From Paenibacillus sp. HGH0039 (GTDB taxonomy: Bacteria > Bacillota > Bacilli > Paenibacillales > NBRC-103111): a DNA stretch of 64,000 bases. The position numbers and the translations under genes are program-made. Each line of letters opens with the position of its first letter. Position 1 is the stretch's first letter. Location of the stretch: positions 1,086,645 through 1,150,644 of the forward strand of contig NZ_KE150412.1 in the NCBI RefSeq assembly GCF_000411255.1, read 5' to 3'. Under the pieces are notes generated by a model, which ran no database searches, was not told the origin of the DNA, and was given only the letters and a program-made list of their open reading frames with translations. Shown piece by piece: positions 39,044 through 44,732 of this stretch.

Positions 39044-39529
39044 CTACCAGATTCTTTTGCCTGATACGATCAGTACGACGCCTGCCGCCAGCAGAAGCAC
39101 GATAAACACGTAGATGCTCACCGTAAACACCAGGTTGAAGAGCAGCAGCACTACGGAGACGAGCGCGAGTCCGATGGCAATCATCCGCAGCCCGTTATCC
39201 CGGCCTTTTTCGAAATAGACGAGTTCATAGAGCCCGACCGCGATCCCGAAAATGAATCCCGGCCACAGAATGGACATGAGCCCCCAGCCGAACAGGCTGC
39301 ACAGGAAAAAGAGAATACCGTACGTAACGAGAACGCCGCCCGGAAAAACCGCCGCGGATGGCAGTGTCCGGTTGAAGACGAGGGCGTGCAGCACAAGGCC
39401 GGGCAGCACGAGCAGCACAAGCGGCCACAAAAGCGCCCCGATGAACGTGAAAACGCCGATTTTTCCGAGCAGCAGAACTAGAGCCACCCCGACAAGAATG
39501 ATTCCCATAGATAACGGTTTGTTCGACAT
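39044..39529 (-). CDS. Hypothetical multi-pass membrane protein
   Basis: A 161 aa protein with about six hydrophobic segments (GIILVGVALVLLLGKIGVF, LLWPLVLLVLPGLVLHALVF and others) and the short polar stretch YFEKGRDNG. The LLWPLVLLVLPG and IFGIAVGLYEL pattern resembles LiaI/LiaF-like membrane proteins, but I cannot assign it. A longer frame opens at 39616; the ATG at 39529 has AGGGGGA six bases upstream. The gene stands alone between typA and the ABC/DUF3299 unit. Confidence 0.7.
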   Translation of the reverse strand: MSNKPLSMGIILVGVALVLLLGKIGVFTFIGALLWPLVLLVLPGLVLHALVFNRTLPSAAVFPGGVLVTYGILFFLCSLFGWGLMSILWPGFIFGIAVGLYELVYFEKGRDNGLRMIAIGLALVSVVLLLFNLVFTVSIYVFIVLLLAAGVVLIVSGKRIW

Positions 39530-39757
39530 CTGCGATCCCCCTGTATTCGGACGACACCTTGACGGATAGCGGATCTGCGGATTGCCGGAATTGCGGCGAG
39601 GTTTCCTGATCGCCATCTCCGTATCTTGGAAGTCCGGCAGTCCGCCCCTCCGCGTCCGCGGGCAATTCCGCCCGGTATCGACACGCTTTTTATTTCCAGT
39701 TTATCGCAAACGGGAAATGCTGGCTAGAGCCAATCCTCGGGCGGAAATGCGGAGAAG

Positions 39758-40615
39758 CTATTCTTTTATCGATTCAAAAGAGGCGTCGTAGAGCCGGAAC
39801 ATCGTTTTGTAGCCGGACTCGTCGACTTTAATGCCCACGTCGAGTCTGCCCTTGATTTTAAGGGGACCTGACGTGTAGCGCAGCTTCGTCTCCTTCGGCA
39901 CGAATACGATCATAATCTTGTTCCAGTAAGTCTCGTCCCCGTTGTCAAAAGGGCATTCCGCCCCGGGCGCGGGAATGAGCAGAAACCAGTGCTTGTCGAA
40001 GGACAGGACTTCGCCCATAAACCCGCGGATCTCTACGCTTTTGCCGTTGAGATCCCAGAATTTATTCGACGGCGTCGCCTGTTTCTCGTCGTCGAAGAAC
40101 TCCGTCCACTTCAGCACGGGGGACGAAGATTTGGCCGGGGCCGCCGTCGGCTTCGCGGCGGCCGGAGTCTTGTCCGCGGGGCCGTTCCCGGCGGACGCAT
40201 TCTTCTGCGGCGGCGCGCTTGCCGCAGGAGCGGTCCCGGCGGCCGTGCCGCCGGAAGGAGCCGCCGACGGCTGCACGGAGCCGCCCGCTGCTGCCGCGCC
40301 CGGCGCAGGGCTCTGCCGCGGAGCCGTTCCCGGCGATGCGGATGATGCGGGCGCTCCGCCCGCATCGCCGGCAGCCGGCGGCAGGCCGCCCGGGGCGCCT
40401 GTGCCTGTGCCGGTCGGGGCGGGCGTCCCCTCCGGCGCGGCGCTTCCCGCGGGAGGCGCTGCCGCGGACGGGGACGCGGCGGCGTCTGCCGGCGTCTGCG
40501 CGGCCGATGCGGAGCCGAACGACTGCGCGGCAGTCTTCGGCGCCTCTTCTTTGCCGCAGGCGGATGTCAGGAGCGCGGCGGCGAGAATCGTCAAAACCGT
40601 GCGGGTATACTTCAT
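39758..40615 (-). CDS. DUF3299-like lipoprotein of a putative metal ABC system
   Basis: A 285 aa lipoprotein with lipobox LTSAC and Cys20. Residues about 28-165 are an Ala/Pro/Gly/Ser-rich linker with few charged residues. The C-terminal 115 residues form a domain starting LKWTEFFDDE, with GKSVEIRGFMGEV, HWFLLIPAPGAECPF, NKIMIVFVP and a GYKTMFRLYDASFE end. This order and spacing resemble DUF3299, a periplasmic domain found with ABC systems such as Vibrio ZrgE. The single Cys in GAECPF matches a conserved cysteine position as I recall the family. It is the last gene of the ABC unit, 81 bp after the permease. AGGAGG precedes the ATG. Confidence 0.75.
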   Translation of the reverse strand: MKYTRTVLTILAAALLTSACGKEEAPKTAAQSFGSASAAQTPADAAASPSAAAPPAGSAAPEGTPAPTGTGTGAPGGLPPAAGDAGGAPASSASPGTAPRQSPAPGAAAAGGSVQPSAAPSGGTAAGTAPAASAPPQKNASAGNGPADKTPAAAKPTAAPAKSSSPVLKWTEFFDDEKQATPSNKFWDLNGKSVEIRGFMGEVLSFDKHWFLLIPAPGAECPFDNGDETYWNKIMIVFVPKETKLRYTSGPLKIKGRLDVGIKVDESGYKTMFRLYDASFESIKE

Positions 40616-40696
40616 TATGGATCTCCTCCTACATAAGGGAATGGAATTGCTGTCCGGTCTTTCGGACAGCGCGGCGGCGGCGCTGCCGCAGCCGGA

Positions 40697-41980
40697 TCAG
40701 GAACGGAACAGATACAAGGGGTCCACCCGGTAAACCTGCCAGGCCGGAATCGCCGAAGCGGCTATGCCGAGCAGGACGGCTCCTCCCGCAAGCAGCAGCT
40801 CGCCGGGCGCAAGCGACCATGGATCGATCTGGATTCCCGCGAAGTCAAACAGCAGGGAGCTTCCGGCGGCTCCGGCGCTATGGCCGAGCAGAAGGCCGAC
40901 AAGCAGACCTCCCGCGGTCAGAAAAACCCCTTCGCCGACAAGCGCCGCCCACACGTACCGTCCCGGTTTGCCGATCAGGCGCAGCAGCGCGACATCTTTG
41001 CGGCGTTCGCTTGCCGCCGCCAGCAAAGAAAGCAGCAGGGTCAAAGCGGCCAAAAGGACGCAAAGGTACGTAACGATCTGCACGACCTGCGTGCCTTTAT
41101 CCACCACATTGACGACGTCCGCTACGGCCTTGCCGGTATACATGGCCTGAAGGCCCGTCATTGCGTCGTATTTGTTTTTGAGCGCCTGGGCTCCGAGAAG
41201 CGATTTCGGCTTCACCATAAGCGCCGTCACTTCGCGGTCGTGCTGCGCTGCTTCCCCGTGGACCGCCCAGGCGTAGTCCAGTGTCGTGAACACGGCACGA
41301 TCGTCGGGAGAGTGCAGAGGCGGCAGGATGCCGACGACTTTGTACGAGAAAGCTTCATGCTCGTCATGCTCGTTATGCTCGTTATGCTCGCCTTGTGCGC
41401 CCTCATGGCTTGCGTCCGCATGCCCCCCGCTCTCTTCCTCATGGTGCTCCTCCGCATGCTCTCCCGCCGCTTCGGCGGAATGGACAAGGCCGTGCCCGCC
41501 CTTGAACGTATCTCCCACATTCAAGCCGAGCGTACGGGCGGCATGTGAGCCGATAACCGCTTCGCCGAGCCCGTCGTACAAGCTTCCTGACGCGAGCTGT
41601 TTATCTCCGTACCGGACGGCGAAATACCGGGCGTCTACGCCTACTATGGGATAACCGTTCAGATTATCTCCCGTCGTTATGGCGAAAACTTCCTCCGCCT
41701 CGGCTTCTTTCTTCACCTGCTCATATAAGGCGTTCGGAATATTCCCGGTCGGCGCCCCGATATGATAGTAGGTGCTCATCGCAAGCTGGGTCTTGCTCCC
41801 CTCCGCGCCCATCGTAATCTCGAACGGACCGTATCCTTTCTCAGCGCCTTTCTCCACGCCTTCGTTCCACATCAGCACGAACAGCAGCAAAGCGGCCGTC
41901 AAGGCGACCGAAAGCATCGTTAAGACCGATAATGTCTTACGGTGAAGCGCATTGCGCCAAATAACCCGGAAAACACTCAT
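40697..41980 (-). CDS. FtsX/MacB-type ABC permease with His-rich insert
   Basis: A 427 aa permease with one N-terminal helix (residues 17-38), a large extracytoplasmic domain (about 40-290) and three C-terminal helices, the FtsX/LolC layout. The external domain has VVGILPPLHSPDDRAVFTTLD, usual in this family. Residues 163-208 contain eleven histidines and many Glu/Asp (for example EHAEEHHEEE and EHNEHNEHDEHE), a probable metal-binding loop. Start is the ATG at 41980, which overlaps the ATPase stop as ATGA and has AAGGGG nine bases upstream; a frame from 42001 lacks a site. Likely function is metal-linked transport or lipoprotein handling. Confidence 0.85.
   Translation of the reverse strand: MSVFRVIWRNALHRKTLSVLTMLSVALTAALLLFVLMWNEGVEKGAEKGYGPFEITMGAEGSKTQLAMSTYYHIGAPTGNIPNALYEQVKKEAEAEEVFAITTGDNLNGYPIVGVDARYFAVRYGDKQLASGSLYDGLGEAVIGSHAARTLGLNVGDTFKGGHGLVHSAEAAGEHAEEHHEEESGGHADASHEGAQGEHNEHNEHDEHEAFSYKVVGILPPLHSPDDRAVFTTLDYAWAVHGEAAQHDREVTALMVKPKSLLGAQALKNKYDAMTGLQAMYTGKAVADVVNVVDKGTQVVQIVTYLCVLLAALTLLLSLLAAASERRKDVALLRLIGKPGRYVWAALVGEGVFLTAGGLLVGLLLGHSAGAAGSSLLFDFAGIQIDPWSLAPGELLLAGGAVLLGIAASAIPAWQVYRVDPLYLFRS
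41359..41394. repeat. Four 9 bp repeats coding for the EHN/EHD units
   Basis: Four consecutive 9 bp units (ATGCTCGTC, ATGCTCGTT twice, ATGCTCGCC) code on the minus strand for repeated His-Glu-Asn/Asp tripeptides in the permease loop. Confidence 0.85.
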
Positions 41981-42756
41981 CCCAGCTTTTCCCCTTTCCA
42001 TCCGGACGTCCCCGAGGGTTCAGCTATATCTCCCGGCAAAATACGGTCACGACCAGGCCCGCCCGCCGGGCGGATCGCTTCCTTCGGCGTGTACCACTCG
42101 TTAAGCTCCCCGATGTGCGTCCTGGTCCGGAACCCGGCCGCCAGCTCGAGATCATGGGTCACGACCAGCAGCGTCGCATTCGAGGATGCGGTAAGCTCGA
42201 GGAGAAGCCGCATCACGTCCTCGGCCGTTTCCCGGTCCAGGCTTCCCGTCGGCTCATCGGCCAGCACGATTTTCGGGCTGCGGATCAGGGCCCGGATCAT
42301 CGCCACCCTCTGCTGCTGTCCGCGGGACAGCTGACCGGGCAGATGATTCATCCGGTCGGCAAGTCCGACGCGTTCGAACCATTCCGCTGTGAGTTCCCGC
42401 TTACGCGGTTTAGGCATTTTCACGGGCAGGGCCAGCTCCACGTTCTGCCTCGCTGTCAGCGAGGCCATGAGGTGAAAATCCTGAAAGATGATTCCGACCT
42501 TCTCGGAACGGAAGCGGTCGCGCTGGGCCTGGGATTGGGCATGAAGAGGCACATCGTCGACAGTTATCTGCCCTTCGTCCGGGGCGAGTACGCCGCAGAG
42601 CAGATGGAGCAGCGTACTTTTGCCGCTTCCGCTGGGACCGGTTAACGCAAGCTGCGCGCCTTCCCCCACTTCCCATTCCGGAACGGATAAAATGGGGAGC
42701 TCCCCTTCGCCGGGCAGCCGGAACTGTTTTTTAACGCCTGTAAGCTTAATCATCAT
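41977..42756 (-). CDS. LolD/MacB-type ABC transporter ATPase
   Basis: A 259 aa ATPase with Walker A GPSGSGKST near residue 40, Q-loop in IFQDFHLMASL, signature LSRGQQQRVAM, and Walker B IVLADEPTGSLD. The sequence belongs to the LolD/MacB/FtsE group that pairs with FtsX-type permeases, as the next gene confirms. GGAGG is seven bases before the ATG. It is the first gene of a three-gene unit; phoA lies upstream on the same strand but is separated by a terminator-like hairpin. Confidence 0.88.
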   Translation of the reverse strand: MMIKLTGVKKQFRLPGEGELPILSVPEWEVGEGAQLALTGPSGSGKSTLLHLLCGVLAPDEGQITVDDVPLHAQSQAQRDRFRSEKVGIIFQDFHLMASLTARQNVELALPVKMPKPRKRELTAEWFERVGLADRMNHLPGQLSRGQQQRVAMIRALIRSPKIVLADEPTGSLDRETAEDVMRLLLELTASSNATLLVVTHDLELAAGFRTRTHIGELNEWYTPKEAIRPAGGPGRDRILPGDIAEPSGTSGWKGEKLG

Positions 42757-42770
42757 GTATCAGCCTCCAT

Positions 42771-42813
42771 TGAAAACGGACAGGAGCTTCATGCCCCTGT
42801 CCGTCGGATGATG
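42771..42813 (-). terminator. Hairpin after phoA
   Basis: Minus strand ACGGACAGGGG pairs with CCTGTCCGT, followed by TTTTC. A moderate terminator that may allow read-through from phoA into the ABC unit. Confidence 0.6.
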
Positions 42814-42836: not shown

Positions 42837-44570
42837 TTATTTCAGCTTGATCCGCTCGGAGAGCGCGTCCCATGTCAAGTTTTTGCCCGTAAGCTTGTTG
42901 AATGCTTCCAGCGGGAGATAGAGGACGTTGTTGTCGATGTTCGCTTTGAAGCCGCTTGGCTGGCCGTTCAAGGCCGCTGCCTGCGTATCGATGTTTACGG
43001 AAAGATTGACGCCGCCCGCGCTCAGAACGACTTCTCTTGCATCCCCGTTCCATTTCACTTCGGCGCCCAGCGTTTCAGCCAGCGCTCTGGCCGGATAAAG
43101 TACCGCACCTTCGCGGGTCACTTTGAATTTCGGGTACGCATATTCGCTCTGCAGCTTGTCTGTCGCCGCTTTCAGATCGATACCCGCCACGGAAGCCACG
43201 GCGCGCGCGATTTCGGTGTTGTCGATCTGGCCTTTGACCTTCTCGGCGATAGGACCGTAAGCCCATACGCCCACGTCGACGGCGGAATGACCGTGTCCGG
43301 ACCAGCCTACAAGGTAGCGCTTGGACATTACGGCGTTAAATGCGCCTTCCTGCTTGTACGAAGAGCCGTCTCCGGCGAGAATGAATTTCGCTTCGTCGTC
43401 GGTCAGATCCGTATGGCCGGTATATTTGGCTACGAGCGCTTTCACGTCTTCGACGGTTTTGGCGTTTTTGAGCTCTCCGCCGATCAGTTCCGACGATTTT
43501 TGCTGGTCGTCCCAAGCGTCCACGTTGATCTCGTAAATGTTGTCACGGGAAAGCGAGAGACCGCCTGTTTCGTGATCCGCCGTTACGACGACGGACGTGT
43601 TACCGTCTTTTTTCGCAAATTCCATGGCGACTTTAACCGCTGCGTCGAAATCGAGCATTTCCTGCACGACGGACGGCAGATCGTTCGCATGACCCGCATG
43701 GTCGATGCGTCCGCCTTCCACCATCATCGTAAATCCTTTCGGATTGGCGGAAAGAATGTCGATCGCTTTGCTGGTCATTTCCGCGAGATTAGGGACGGTG
43801 TTCGTGCGGTCCAGCACATAATCCACGTGGGAGTTTCCGAACAGGCCGAGCGCTTTTCCGGTTTTGCCGTCCAGCGATGACAGCCCCTGCTTGTCGTACA
43901 CGACTTTGTAGCCTTCTTTTTCGAAGTCCGGAATGATCGTTTTGTCCGTCCGCTTGCCCTTCTCGTCCTTGCTCAGGAAAAACTGCTTGCCGCCGCCGAA
44001 CAGCACGTCCACATTCCCGTCGTTCAAATATTGGGACGCGATGGCGCTCTCGTTGTCGCGGTTGCGCACGTGAGAAGCGTAAACGGCCGGTGTAGCGTGA
44101 GTGATACGAGCGGTGGTGACGAGTCCCGTCGCTTTGCCCGCCAGCTCGGAAGCTTCGATCACGGAAGCGAACGGCTTGGACACGTCTTCGTTCGAAACGC
44201 TGATCGCGGCGTTGTATGTTTTATTGCCCGTTGCGAAAGCCGTTCCCGCCGAAGCGGAGTCCGTCACTTCACCGGAAACGATTGTGCCGCCGTCTTCTCC
44301 CCGGTCCGCATATGTAGTGGCTTGTCCGACGTAGTAGGAGTCGAGCTCCAAATGATCCTTGCCCAGCTTATTTTTGGAAAACGTACGTCCGGCCGACACC
44401 TGGGCCGGTCCCATTCCGTCGCCGATCAGCACGATCACGTTCTTGGATACCGCCTTCTGTTCTTTCTCTGCAGCCGTTGTGCCTGCGGCCAGTGCGCCGC
44501 TTGCCAGCGTGAATGGAAGAAGTGCGATTGCCGTTCCGGCAATCATCGAACGATGAATGATCTTTTTCAA
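42837..44570 (-). CDS. phoA: Alkaline phosphatase with C-terminal Cu-amine-oxidase-N-like domain
   Basis: A secreted phosphomonoesterase of the alkaline phosphatase family. Seen: signal peptide (ends ASGALAA), VIVLIGDGMGPAQV metal ligand region, nucleophile serine in VTDSASAGTAFATG, MVEGGRIDHAGHAND, VVTADHETGGL and WSGHGHS, which together hold the zinc and magnesium ligands. The last ~95 residues (KVTREGAVLYPARALAETLGAEVKW onward) form a copper amine oxidase N-terminal-like stalk domain, common on Paenibacillus surface proteins. Translation probably starts at TTG 44570, with GGAGGGG six bases upstream, giving 577 aa; the longer frame from 44609 has no site. Confidence 0.93.
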   Translation of the reverse strand: MKKIIHRSMIAGTAIALLPFTLASGALAAGTTAAEKEQKAVSKNVIVLIGDGMGPAQVSAGRTFSKNKLGKDHLELDSYYVGQATTYADRGEDGGTIVSGEVTDSASAGTAFATGNKTYNAAISVSNEDVSKPFASVIEASELAGKATGLVTTARITHATPAVYASHVRNRDNESAIASQYLNDGNVDVLFGGGKQFFLSKDEKGKRTDKTIIPDFEKEGYKVVYDKQGLSSLDGKTGKALGLFGNSHVDYVLDRTNTVPNLAEMTSKAIDILSANPKGFTMMVEGGRIDHAGHANDLPSVVQEMLDFDAAVKVAMEFAKKDGNTSVVVTADHETGGLSLSRDNIYEINVDAWDDQQKSSELIGGELKNAKTVEDVKALVAKYTGHTDLTDDEAKFILAGDGSSYKQEGAFNAVMSKRYLVGWSGHGHSAVDVGVWAYGPIAEKVKGQIDNTEIARAVASVAGIDLKAATDKLQSEYAYPKFKVTREGAVLYPARALAETLGAEVKWNGDAREVVLSAGGVNLSVNIDTQAAALNGQPSGFKANIDNNVLYLPLEAFNKLTGKNLTWDALSERIKLK

Positions 44571-44732
44571 AAGAATCCCCTCCGACTTTAAGTTCCCAAC
44601 AAGTCTCATCGTACGGCTTTACTATTTCCGACAGTTAAAAGAAAACGCGCAAGTTTGTTAAATTAAGGGGATACTATTAAGCCGATGTAAAAAGGGGATA
44701 CTACCGGTAACCAGAAGGACAGGAGAACGGAG

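Follow-up and report, generated by a model that had tools for sequence, protein, structure and literature searches.

We analysed a stretch of 64,000 nucleotides from Paenibacillus sp. HGH0039 (contig NZ_KE150412.1, positions 1,086,645 to 1,150,644; the whole stretch is called the window below), in which four consecutive genes encode an alkaline phosphatase, an ATP-binding cassette (ABC) ATPase, an FtsX/MacB-type permease and a lipoprotein with a C-terminal OB-fold domain (Table 1). An earlier note on this DNA had described the last three genes as a co-directional group, with an ATGA overlap between ATPase and permease and eleven histidines within 46 residues of the permease's external domain, and these observations were confirmed: the three genes share the minus strand, positions 41977-41980 read ATGA given a permease start at Met8, and the histidine count is exact for residues 170-215. 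Its reading as a Gram-positive Zrg-like system with the phosphatase as a suggestive neighbour was borne out only in part: the same genes are also grouped in Deinococcus, Thermus, Rhizobium, Paracoccus and further genera, and the alkaline phosphatase upstream belongs to the unit as its conserved fourth member. The window genome is probably close to Paenibacillus chitinolyticus, because a record so named holds a 100% identical OB domain.

Table 1. Features of the phosphatase/transporter locus, in window coordinates.
Feature	Position	Strand	Basis
Pho-box-like repeats TTTACA / TTAATA / TTAACA (44691-44686, 44680-44675, 44661-44656)	44656..44691	(-)	11-nt period enrichment
Alkaline phosphatase (PF00245); carries a signal peptide and, C-terminally, a Cu_amine_oxidN1 domain	42837..44570	(-)	profile match
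RNA hairpin ACGGACAGGGGC-loop-GCTCCTGTCCGT, then TTTC; separates phosphatase from ATPase	42776..42804	(-)	covariation
ABC ATPase, LolD/FtsE/MacB type	41977..42756	(-)	ABC_tran match
FtsX/MacB-type permease, 427 aa from Met8	40697..41980 (open reading frame opens at 42001)	(-)	FtsX + MacB_PCD
His/Glu-rich extracytoplasmic loop, permease residues 170-215	41357..41494	(-)	11 His in 46
H248 codon, third family-wide permease histidine	41258..41260	(-)	family alignment
Lipoprotein: low-complexity linker, then a DUF3299-related OB-fold domain at the C-terminus	39758..40615	(-)	
C-terminal OB-fold domain, used in searches and modelling	39758..40132	(-)	

Relatives were taken from the best 80 of 488 hits in a genome-wide scan, mostly Paenibacillus (the named loci), from a sample of 104 genomes of the window's family searched for the OB domain and PF00245, from a phylum sample of 398 Bacillota genomes, and from a plasmid collection in which the OB domain matched 57 records, two of them at chance level, and of which 18 were examined. 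The named loci revealed the order phosphatase-ATPase-permease-OB on one strand in 76/80 cases, the remaining four (L093, L101, L153 and L171) being cut by contig ends; the co-occurrence of the three transporter genes in other genomes, on which the earlier note had made its proposal depend, is thus strongly borne out, and in two gene orders. As flanking genes seldom recur (typA and LiaF-TM in 3/80, a major facilitator superfamily gene in 1/80), we consider the four-gene linkage to be more than mere synteny. The window itself holds a LiaF-TM-like membrane protein downstream (39044-39616, E 1e-4, below the cut-off), which is not a conserved neighbour. Within the family sample, the OB domain was present in 61/104 genomes and PF00245 in 67, including all 61, while 6/104 held PF00245 alone and 37/104 neither (Fisher p 3e-22, not corrected for kinship); in 56/63 OB-domain places PF00245 is no more than 8 kb away, and four of the other seven stand at contig ends.

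A second order, phosphatase-lipoprotein-ATPase-permease (type B, that of the window being type A), was followed in 17 further Paenibacillaceae loci (L051-L067), taken from 18 such places with G066 left out. The OB gene, ATPase and permease stand in this order in 16/17, L065 differing, and a phosphatase 27-29% identical to that of the window precedes the OB gene in 14/17; L051 and L065 are without it, and L056 begins at a contig end. Across the phylum sample, the OB domain was detected in 13/398 genomes, namely the own genome, a Paenibacillus-type locus (L081), three other Bacillota families with the order phosphatase-OB-ATPase-permease (L082-L084) and eight loci without linked PF00245 (L085-L092). 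Using tblastn, ATPase and permease were found beside the OB gene in 6/8 of these phosphatase-less loci, L091 being fragmentary; in L090 such a pair lies about 4 kb away, and in L089 none was found.

The plasmid records, from Deinococcota and Alphaproteobacteria, carried a phosphatase upstream of the OB gene in 18/18 cases and ATPase plus permease downstream in 17/18. They comprise Deinococcus radiodurans MP1 (DR_RS15680-DR_RS15700), D. wulumuqiensis, D. aetherius, Thermus thermophilus and Allomeiothermus silvanus on the one side, and three Paracoccus, two Shinella and one each of Rhizobium, Ensifer, Sinorhizobium, Microvirga, Roseomonas, Azospirillum, Qingshengfaniella and Cereibacter on the other; L204 and L212 are unannotated, and tblastn alone served to read their genes. 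Judged by the best-scoring query, the alphaproteobacterial units include at least two phosphatase subtypes. The permease gene of D. wulumuqiensis is short and abuts an IS6 transposase, and that of Ensifer lies in two pieces (tblastn). D. aetherius keeps phosphatase and OB protein without the ABC genes, which points to a direct relation between the two. Genes for PCu(A)C copper chaperones adjoin the phosphatase unit in Ensifer (L200) and Paracoccus liaowanqingii (L209), and in Ensifer an arsenic cluster precedes it.

The window phosphatase matches PF00245 with E 4.9e-99 and probably starts at the TTG at 44570 behind GGAGG, while the listed open reading frame extends to an ATG at 44609. The residues that we take to bind Zn/Mg and to act in catalysis are kept in 111/111 linked phosphatase rows, window included, two of the 76 type-A phosphatases having been dropped from this alignment. 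At position 328, in what we assume to be E. coli numbering, Trp occurs in 8/20 unlinked versus 0/111 linked rows, the unlinked sample being small and related; this hints that one metal-preference class of phosphatase may go without the unit. Both the window enzyme and that of L055 belong to the phosphatases tailed by Cu_amine_oxidN1 (PF00245 + PF07833), from which they differ in the paired ABC unit. The genome holds a second PF00245 phosphatase (G000:C1:1283157-1284413), which is 32% identical and without the unit.

Profile searches against Pfam assigned the ATPase to ABC_tran (1.5e-32) and the permease to FtsX (2.1e-12) and MacB_PCD (1e-9), while the NCBIfam equivalog cut-offs for LolCDE membership were missed (LolC/E 36.7 vs 362 bits, LolD 181 vs 308 bits). 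Met8 of the permease is the position where the starts of most relatives align; residue numbers nevertheless count from the opening of the reading frame at 42001. Its AlphaFold model (predicted local distance difference test, pLDDT, 84.8) shows one helix, an ectodomain and then three helices, so that FtsX and MacB_PCD matches, four helices and an ectodomain between helices 1 and 2 together place the protein among type VII ABC permeases. The nearest solved structure is 5xu1 (5xu1_M), a non-canonical ABC permease of S. pneumoniae (Z 23.3, root-mean-square deviation (rmsd) 7.0, 351 aligned), with LolE (Z 22.3, rmsd 9.7, 364 aligned), heme-exporting HrtB (Z 20.9, rmsd 6.4, 326 aligned), MacB 5gko (Foldseek E 1.3e-13), FtsX and YbbP also among the closest folds.

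The loop of residues 170-215 combines its 11 histidines with 14 Asp/Glu in 46 residues. Two of these histidines, 170 and 215, are family-wide; the other nine fall within residues 172-214, a His/Glu stretch predicted to be disordered (pLDDT under 50). H170 and H248 are present in 122/122 permeases and H215 in 119/122, in an alignment that includes the Zrg ones and consists of the window, 17 type-B, 9 phylum-sample, 77 named and 18 plasmid sequences, omitting L031-L050 (the same genomes return as L093 onward) and lengths <330 or >800 aa. The His-rich inserts are variable and lie either between the first two histidines, as in the window type, or behind the third, as in the Rhizobium type. All three histidines together were found in 0/13 other FtsX-family places of the genome, a remote alignment in which the 13 include several gene halves. 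In Gorillibacterium timonense (G003; L046 / L167), permease and lipoprotein are joined in an open frame of 753 codons that contains an internal lipobox-like LLSAC, a single draft case on which we put no weight.

The lipoprotein has a lipobox-like LTSAC, atypical in its Thr at -3, followed by an Ala/Pro/Ser/Gly-rich linker of some 140 residues and a C-terminal domain of 124 residues. A loose pattern detected a lipobox in 69/127 relatives, including only 4/18 in Deinococcota/Alphaproteobacteria. At full length the protein matched nothing in Pfam at E<=10. The OB domain alone reached E 0.037 and 14.5 bits against PF11736 (DUF3299), below the curated cut-off of 22, and 23/29 relatives matched this family at E<=10 (best 0.0016). 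In fewer rows, equal or better scores were reached by other families (DUF4431 in 8/29, best 0.001; DUF1980_C in 8/29, 0.0011; TIGR03943 in 11/29, best 2.5e-5), which suggests that some of these OB domains belong to a wider OB superfamily. Modelling of the domain (AlphaFold pLDDT 87, predicted template modelling score 0.81) gave as best fold match 4hsp, which is PA4066, the DUF3299 protein of the P. aeruginosa Zrg-like operon (Foldseek E 4.4e-5; VIA Z 11.7, rmsd 2.5, 110 aligned, 2.9 above the next row), and after it come generic OB folds with Z 8.8 and lower.

The hhalign match to four DUF3299 proteins was weak (prob 19.9, E 0.0011), and the GAC-H-PPPP-NQ motif of these four aligned proteins is absent from the window, which reads PGAECPFDNGDETYWNK instead, only Cys and its surroundings matching. 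Among PDB sequences, neither phmmer with the lipoprotein nor hmmsearch with the OB alignment found a DUF3299 chain, the best matches (E 0.82 and 0.71) being to unrelated proteins, and such a chain was reached through fold comparison alone. Of seven full-length OB proteins from other groups, one matched DUF3299 in Pfam at E<=1 (L086, E 0.0021, below the cut-off), L085 and five Deinococcota/Alphaproteobacteria proteins giving no such match. PF11736 had no match in the own genome nor in any of 14 control genomes, so the search is empty as a negative. From the sub-cut-off profile score and the best fold match to 4hsp we concluded that the OB domain is a distant relative of DUF3299 and not a member by the curated rule; the DUF3299-like end described earlier is thereby upheld in the sense of remote kinship.

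The proposed kinship with Zrg was likewise upheld in part. Searching with the permease by tblastn recovered ZrgA-ATPase-permease-DUF3299 operons on a P. aeruginosa plasmid (23% identity, E 5e-4) and in Sulfitobacter (25% identity, E 1e-6), the ATPases were also found in these ZrgA-containing operons, and the histidine set recurs in the permeases of the ZrgA-containing L201 and L203 and of the Catenovulum DUF3299 locus L202. The window unit thus shares with Zrg / PA4063-PA4066 an ATPase, a MacB-type permease with the same three histidines and an OB-fold extracytoplasmic protein. It differs from these systems in that the phosphatase replaces ZrgA, in having Pho-type repeats and no Zur box, and in that the Paenibacillus OB protein is mostly a linker-borne lipoprotein below the DUF3299 cut-off. 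ZrgA (DUF2796, PF10986) was found in 0/104 family genomes over the cut-off and in 2/104 weakly below it, none of them the own genome, while the model works on L201 as positive control. The ABC unit is accordingly related to that of Zrg, and identity with the Zrg operon was rejected for want of ZrgA, of a Zur box and of a DUF3299 score over the cut-off. In Catenovulum (L202), with the order DUF3299-ATPase-permease, a PhoD-type phosphatase is encoded on the opposite strand, two genes away from the permease.

With LolCDE, MacB, FtsEX, YbbAP and HrtBA, all type VII ABC systems, the window unit shares the fold and likely mechanotransmission, and differs from them in its three-histidine signature, His-rich inserts and phosphatase partner. 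Vertebrate ZNT5-ZNT6 and ZNT7 likewise provide a dedicated zinc supply to a secreted alkaline phosphatase (PMC3799634); these are unrelated proteins of the early secretory pathway, and the analogy is one of purpose only. No description of a pairing of phosphatase and ABC unit was found in the literature searched, most subscription papers lying outside its coverage, and the term 'alkaline phosphatase' is absent from the main text of PMC11481552 and PMC8561739. Each part is of a known kind; how the parts combine with an alkaline phosphatase, how widely this combination occurs and how it is controlled appear not to have been described in that literature.

Upstream of 77 phosphatase genes, TTWAYA-type hexamers showed an 11-nt period far above dinucleotide shuffles, with a mean three-copy score of 14.40 vs 12.64 in 12 shuffled sets (standard deviation 0.06, z 27), while other periods (8-10, 12-14) gave z 2.4-6.2. 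This layout is what we take to be that of B. subtilis PhoP boxes, whose consensus is likewise our assumption. The window repeats stand at -121, -110 and -91 from the TTG start; such repeats do not occur everywhere, as an exact TT[ATC]A[TC]A is lacking from the coding strand of 6/76 upstream regions, for which start codons were chosen by rule. Zur control of the unit was rejected: with a consensus that we assume for Zur and applied to sequence only, no site was found in the window at <=2 mismatches, the four at 3 mismatches being far away and at chance level, and the best matches in the 76 upstream regions had 3-7 mismatches, whereas the whole genome gave 51 sites at <=2 mismatches vs 7 in the reversed control.

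A scan for promoters detected none directly before the ATPase, its sole promoter-like match lying at the phosphatase start at chance level. The gap between phosphatase and ATPase measures 7-14 nt in 19 and >=30 nt in 58 of 77 units, window included. In 32/58 long gaps a hairpin around CAGG...CCTG forms >=9 of 11 pairs vs 0/580 shuffles, several other long gaps having a stem of different sequence at this place, and the consensus among relatives is AAACAGGAGAA-loop-TTCTCCTGTTT. In 20 gaps, picked from the 58 for a visible stem and therefore favouring pairing, 9/11 pairs show changes in both partners and pairing holds in 98.2% of cells (0/500 shuffles for both); further pair types, one of five measures, did not beat shuffles (196/500). 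The hairpin, whose T run is short and which the promoter scan did not report, is likely a partial terminator that would lower transporter relative to phosphatase.

Taken together, we consider it possible, with a probability of roughly 0.45, that the four genes form a phosphate-starvation operon in which a secreted zinc alkaline phosphatase would be made alongside an ATP-driven device of its own for extracytoplasmic metal loading; metal as cargo, its identity as zinc, PhoA as client, control by PhoP and the direction of transfer are what we infer from the sequences. In such an operon, PhoP would turn on phoA, and the transporter would be made in smaller amounts through readthrough past the intercistronic hairpin. 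ATPase and permease, the latter of the four-helix MacB/Lol type, would work by mechanotransmission and not as a channel, metal from outside would be collected on the His/Glu loop and handed to a site of the three near-invariant ectodomain histidines, and the membrane-tethered OB-fold lipoprotein on its long flexible linker would dock the newly secreted phosphatase, the metal hand-over being completed upon ATP hydrolysis. Metal loading is favoured most strongly by three features taken together, namely a partner that in three phyla is a metalloenzyme of one family, three near-invariant histidines and metal-binding-like inserts in a permease whose fold is not known to us to serve import, and Pho-type rather than Zur-type control; that the same four genes stand together in very different bacteria suggests a dedicated way of fitting this enzyme with metal. 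More tentatively, the unit may be a dedicated ATP-driven metallation machine with no transmembrane cargo, in which metal would pass from a His-rich antenna into the phosphatase via the OB-fold adaptor.

The permease folds also bring to mind a unit that acts on the phosphatase protein itself, by Lol-, FtsEX- or YbbAP-like release, folding or presentation of PhoA with the OB lipoprotein docking it. LolE, MacB, FtsX and YbbP are for the most part machines acting on proteins or lipids, and the phosphatase is the conserved partner, but the near-invariant histidines and His-rich inserts would have no obvious role in protein release and the same core also occurs with ZrgA and without any linked phosphatase, so that we regard this explanation as unlikely. 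Less likely still is that joint phosphate-starvation regulation alone explains the linkage and that the transporter substrate is unrelated, an idea with which the Pho-type repeats and the readthrough arrangement agree: the same partners recur in both gene orders, with phosphatases of different subtypes and in three phyla, and D. aetherius retains OB protein and phosphatase as a pair in the absence of the ABC genes. A zinc importer, with the abundant phosphatase as external zinc store in the operon place of ZrgA, is just as improbable, given a type VII fold for which we know of no import pathway and the missing Zur box. The Vibrio zrg genes are reported to be needed for growth at low zinc (PMC9820375 and PMC9817125), which would favour import, whereas PMC11481552 argues against import for the Pseudomonas relative.

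Somewhat more plausible than import, yet still doubtful, is a MacB-type metal or metallophore exporter, as proposed for PA4064-PA4065, which would relieve a cytoplasmic or membrane metal load and from which the phosphatase would gain indirectly, through zinc or cobalt pumped into its compartment. It is favoured by the close fold of HrtB, by two Bacillota units amid cobalamin genes and a B12-dependent methionine synthase, by the PCu(A)C genes (in one case also an arsenic cluster) adjoining two alphaproteobacterial units, and by PA4065 mutants that accumulate cobalt and pyochelin, read in PMC11481552 as a pyochelin-cobalt export defect. Against export stand the Pho-type and not metal-type control, the lack of an outer-membrane or MacA partner within the unit, and the phosphatase linkage in three phyla, which would go unexplained unless export serves the phosphatase.

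The HrtB fold and the PA4065 phenotype count at the same time against metal loading of the phosphatase, and further observations weigh against it. In the congeners G059 and G060 an 80%-identical phoA stands at the same site with the unit gone, and 27/83 family PF00245 places are unlinked, a few only from contig ends; in addition, 7/7 type-B genomes with a second phosphatase fetched hold a window-type phosphatase (57-60% identical) without the unit. Because such phosphatases exist, the unit is not indispensable, and PF00245 phosphatases manage without a DUF3299 protein, since E. coli and B. subtilis have PF00245 and DUF3299 was found in 0/14 control genomes. Conversely, units without linked phosphatase occur in the family (G102, G013, G042) and beyond (L085-L088, L091, L092), the phosphatase-less core of L085 and L087 (Bacillota family f59) lying between cobalamin genes and a B12-dependent methionine synthase, which suggests that cobalt or corrinoid may be another client. 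The cobalamin neighbours are CobS in L085 and a FecCD-type permease and CobA in L087. The correlation of phosphatase and permease distances (r 0.96 overall, 0.78 within type A) may be only species history, and the permease tree, with an open backbone in which long branches meet, leaves single and multiple origins of the pairing indistinguishable. Finally, knock-out of zrgE (DUF3299) alone had no growth effect in V. cholerae (PMC9820375), and PA4066 is reported to show no evident zinc binding (PMC11481552).

How bacterial secreted zinc enzymes acquire the correct metal is a largely open question, and by the estimate of one review (PMC4192464) ~70% of metalloenzymes have no delivery system and draw in competition on buffered pools. 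The unit described here touches this question, as in Bacillota, Deinococcota and Alphaproteobacteria it ties a zinc enzyme to an ATP-driven, histidine-marked device, with phosphatase activity as an easy readout. It also bears on the dispute whether Zrg/PA4063-PA4066 is a zinc importer or a metallophore exporter: should the unit prove to be a dedicated metallation machine, Zrg/PA4063-PA4066 would be its Zur-controlled version loading another client, and the claims of import and of export might then be brought into agreement.

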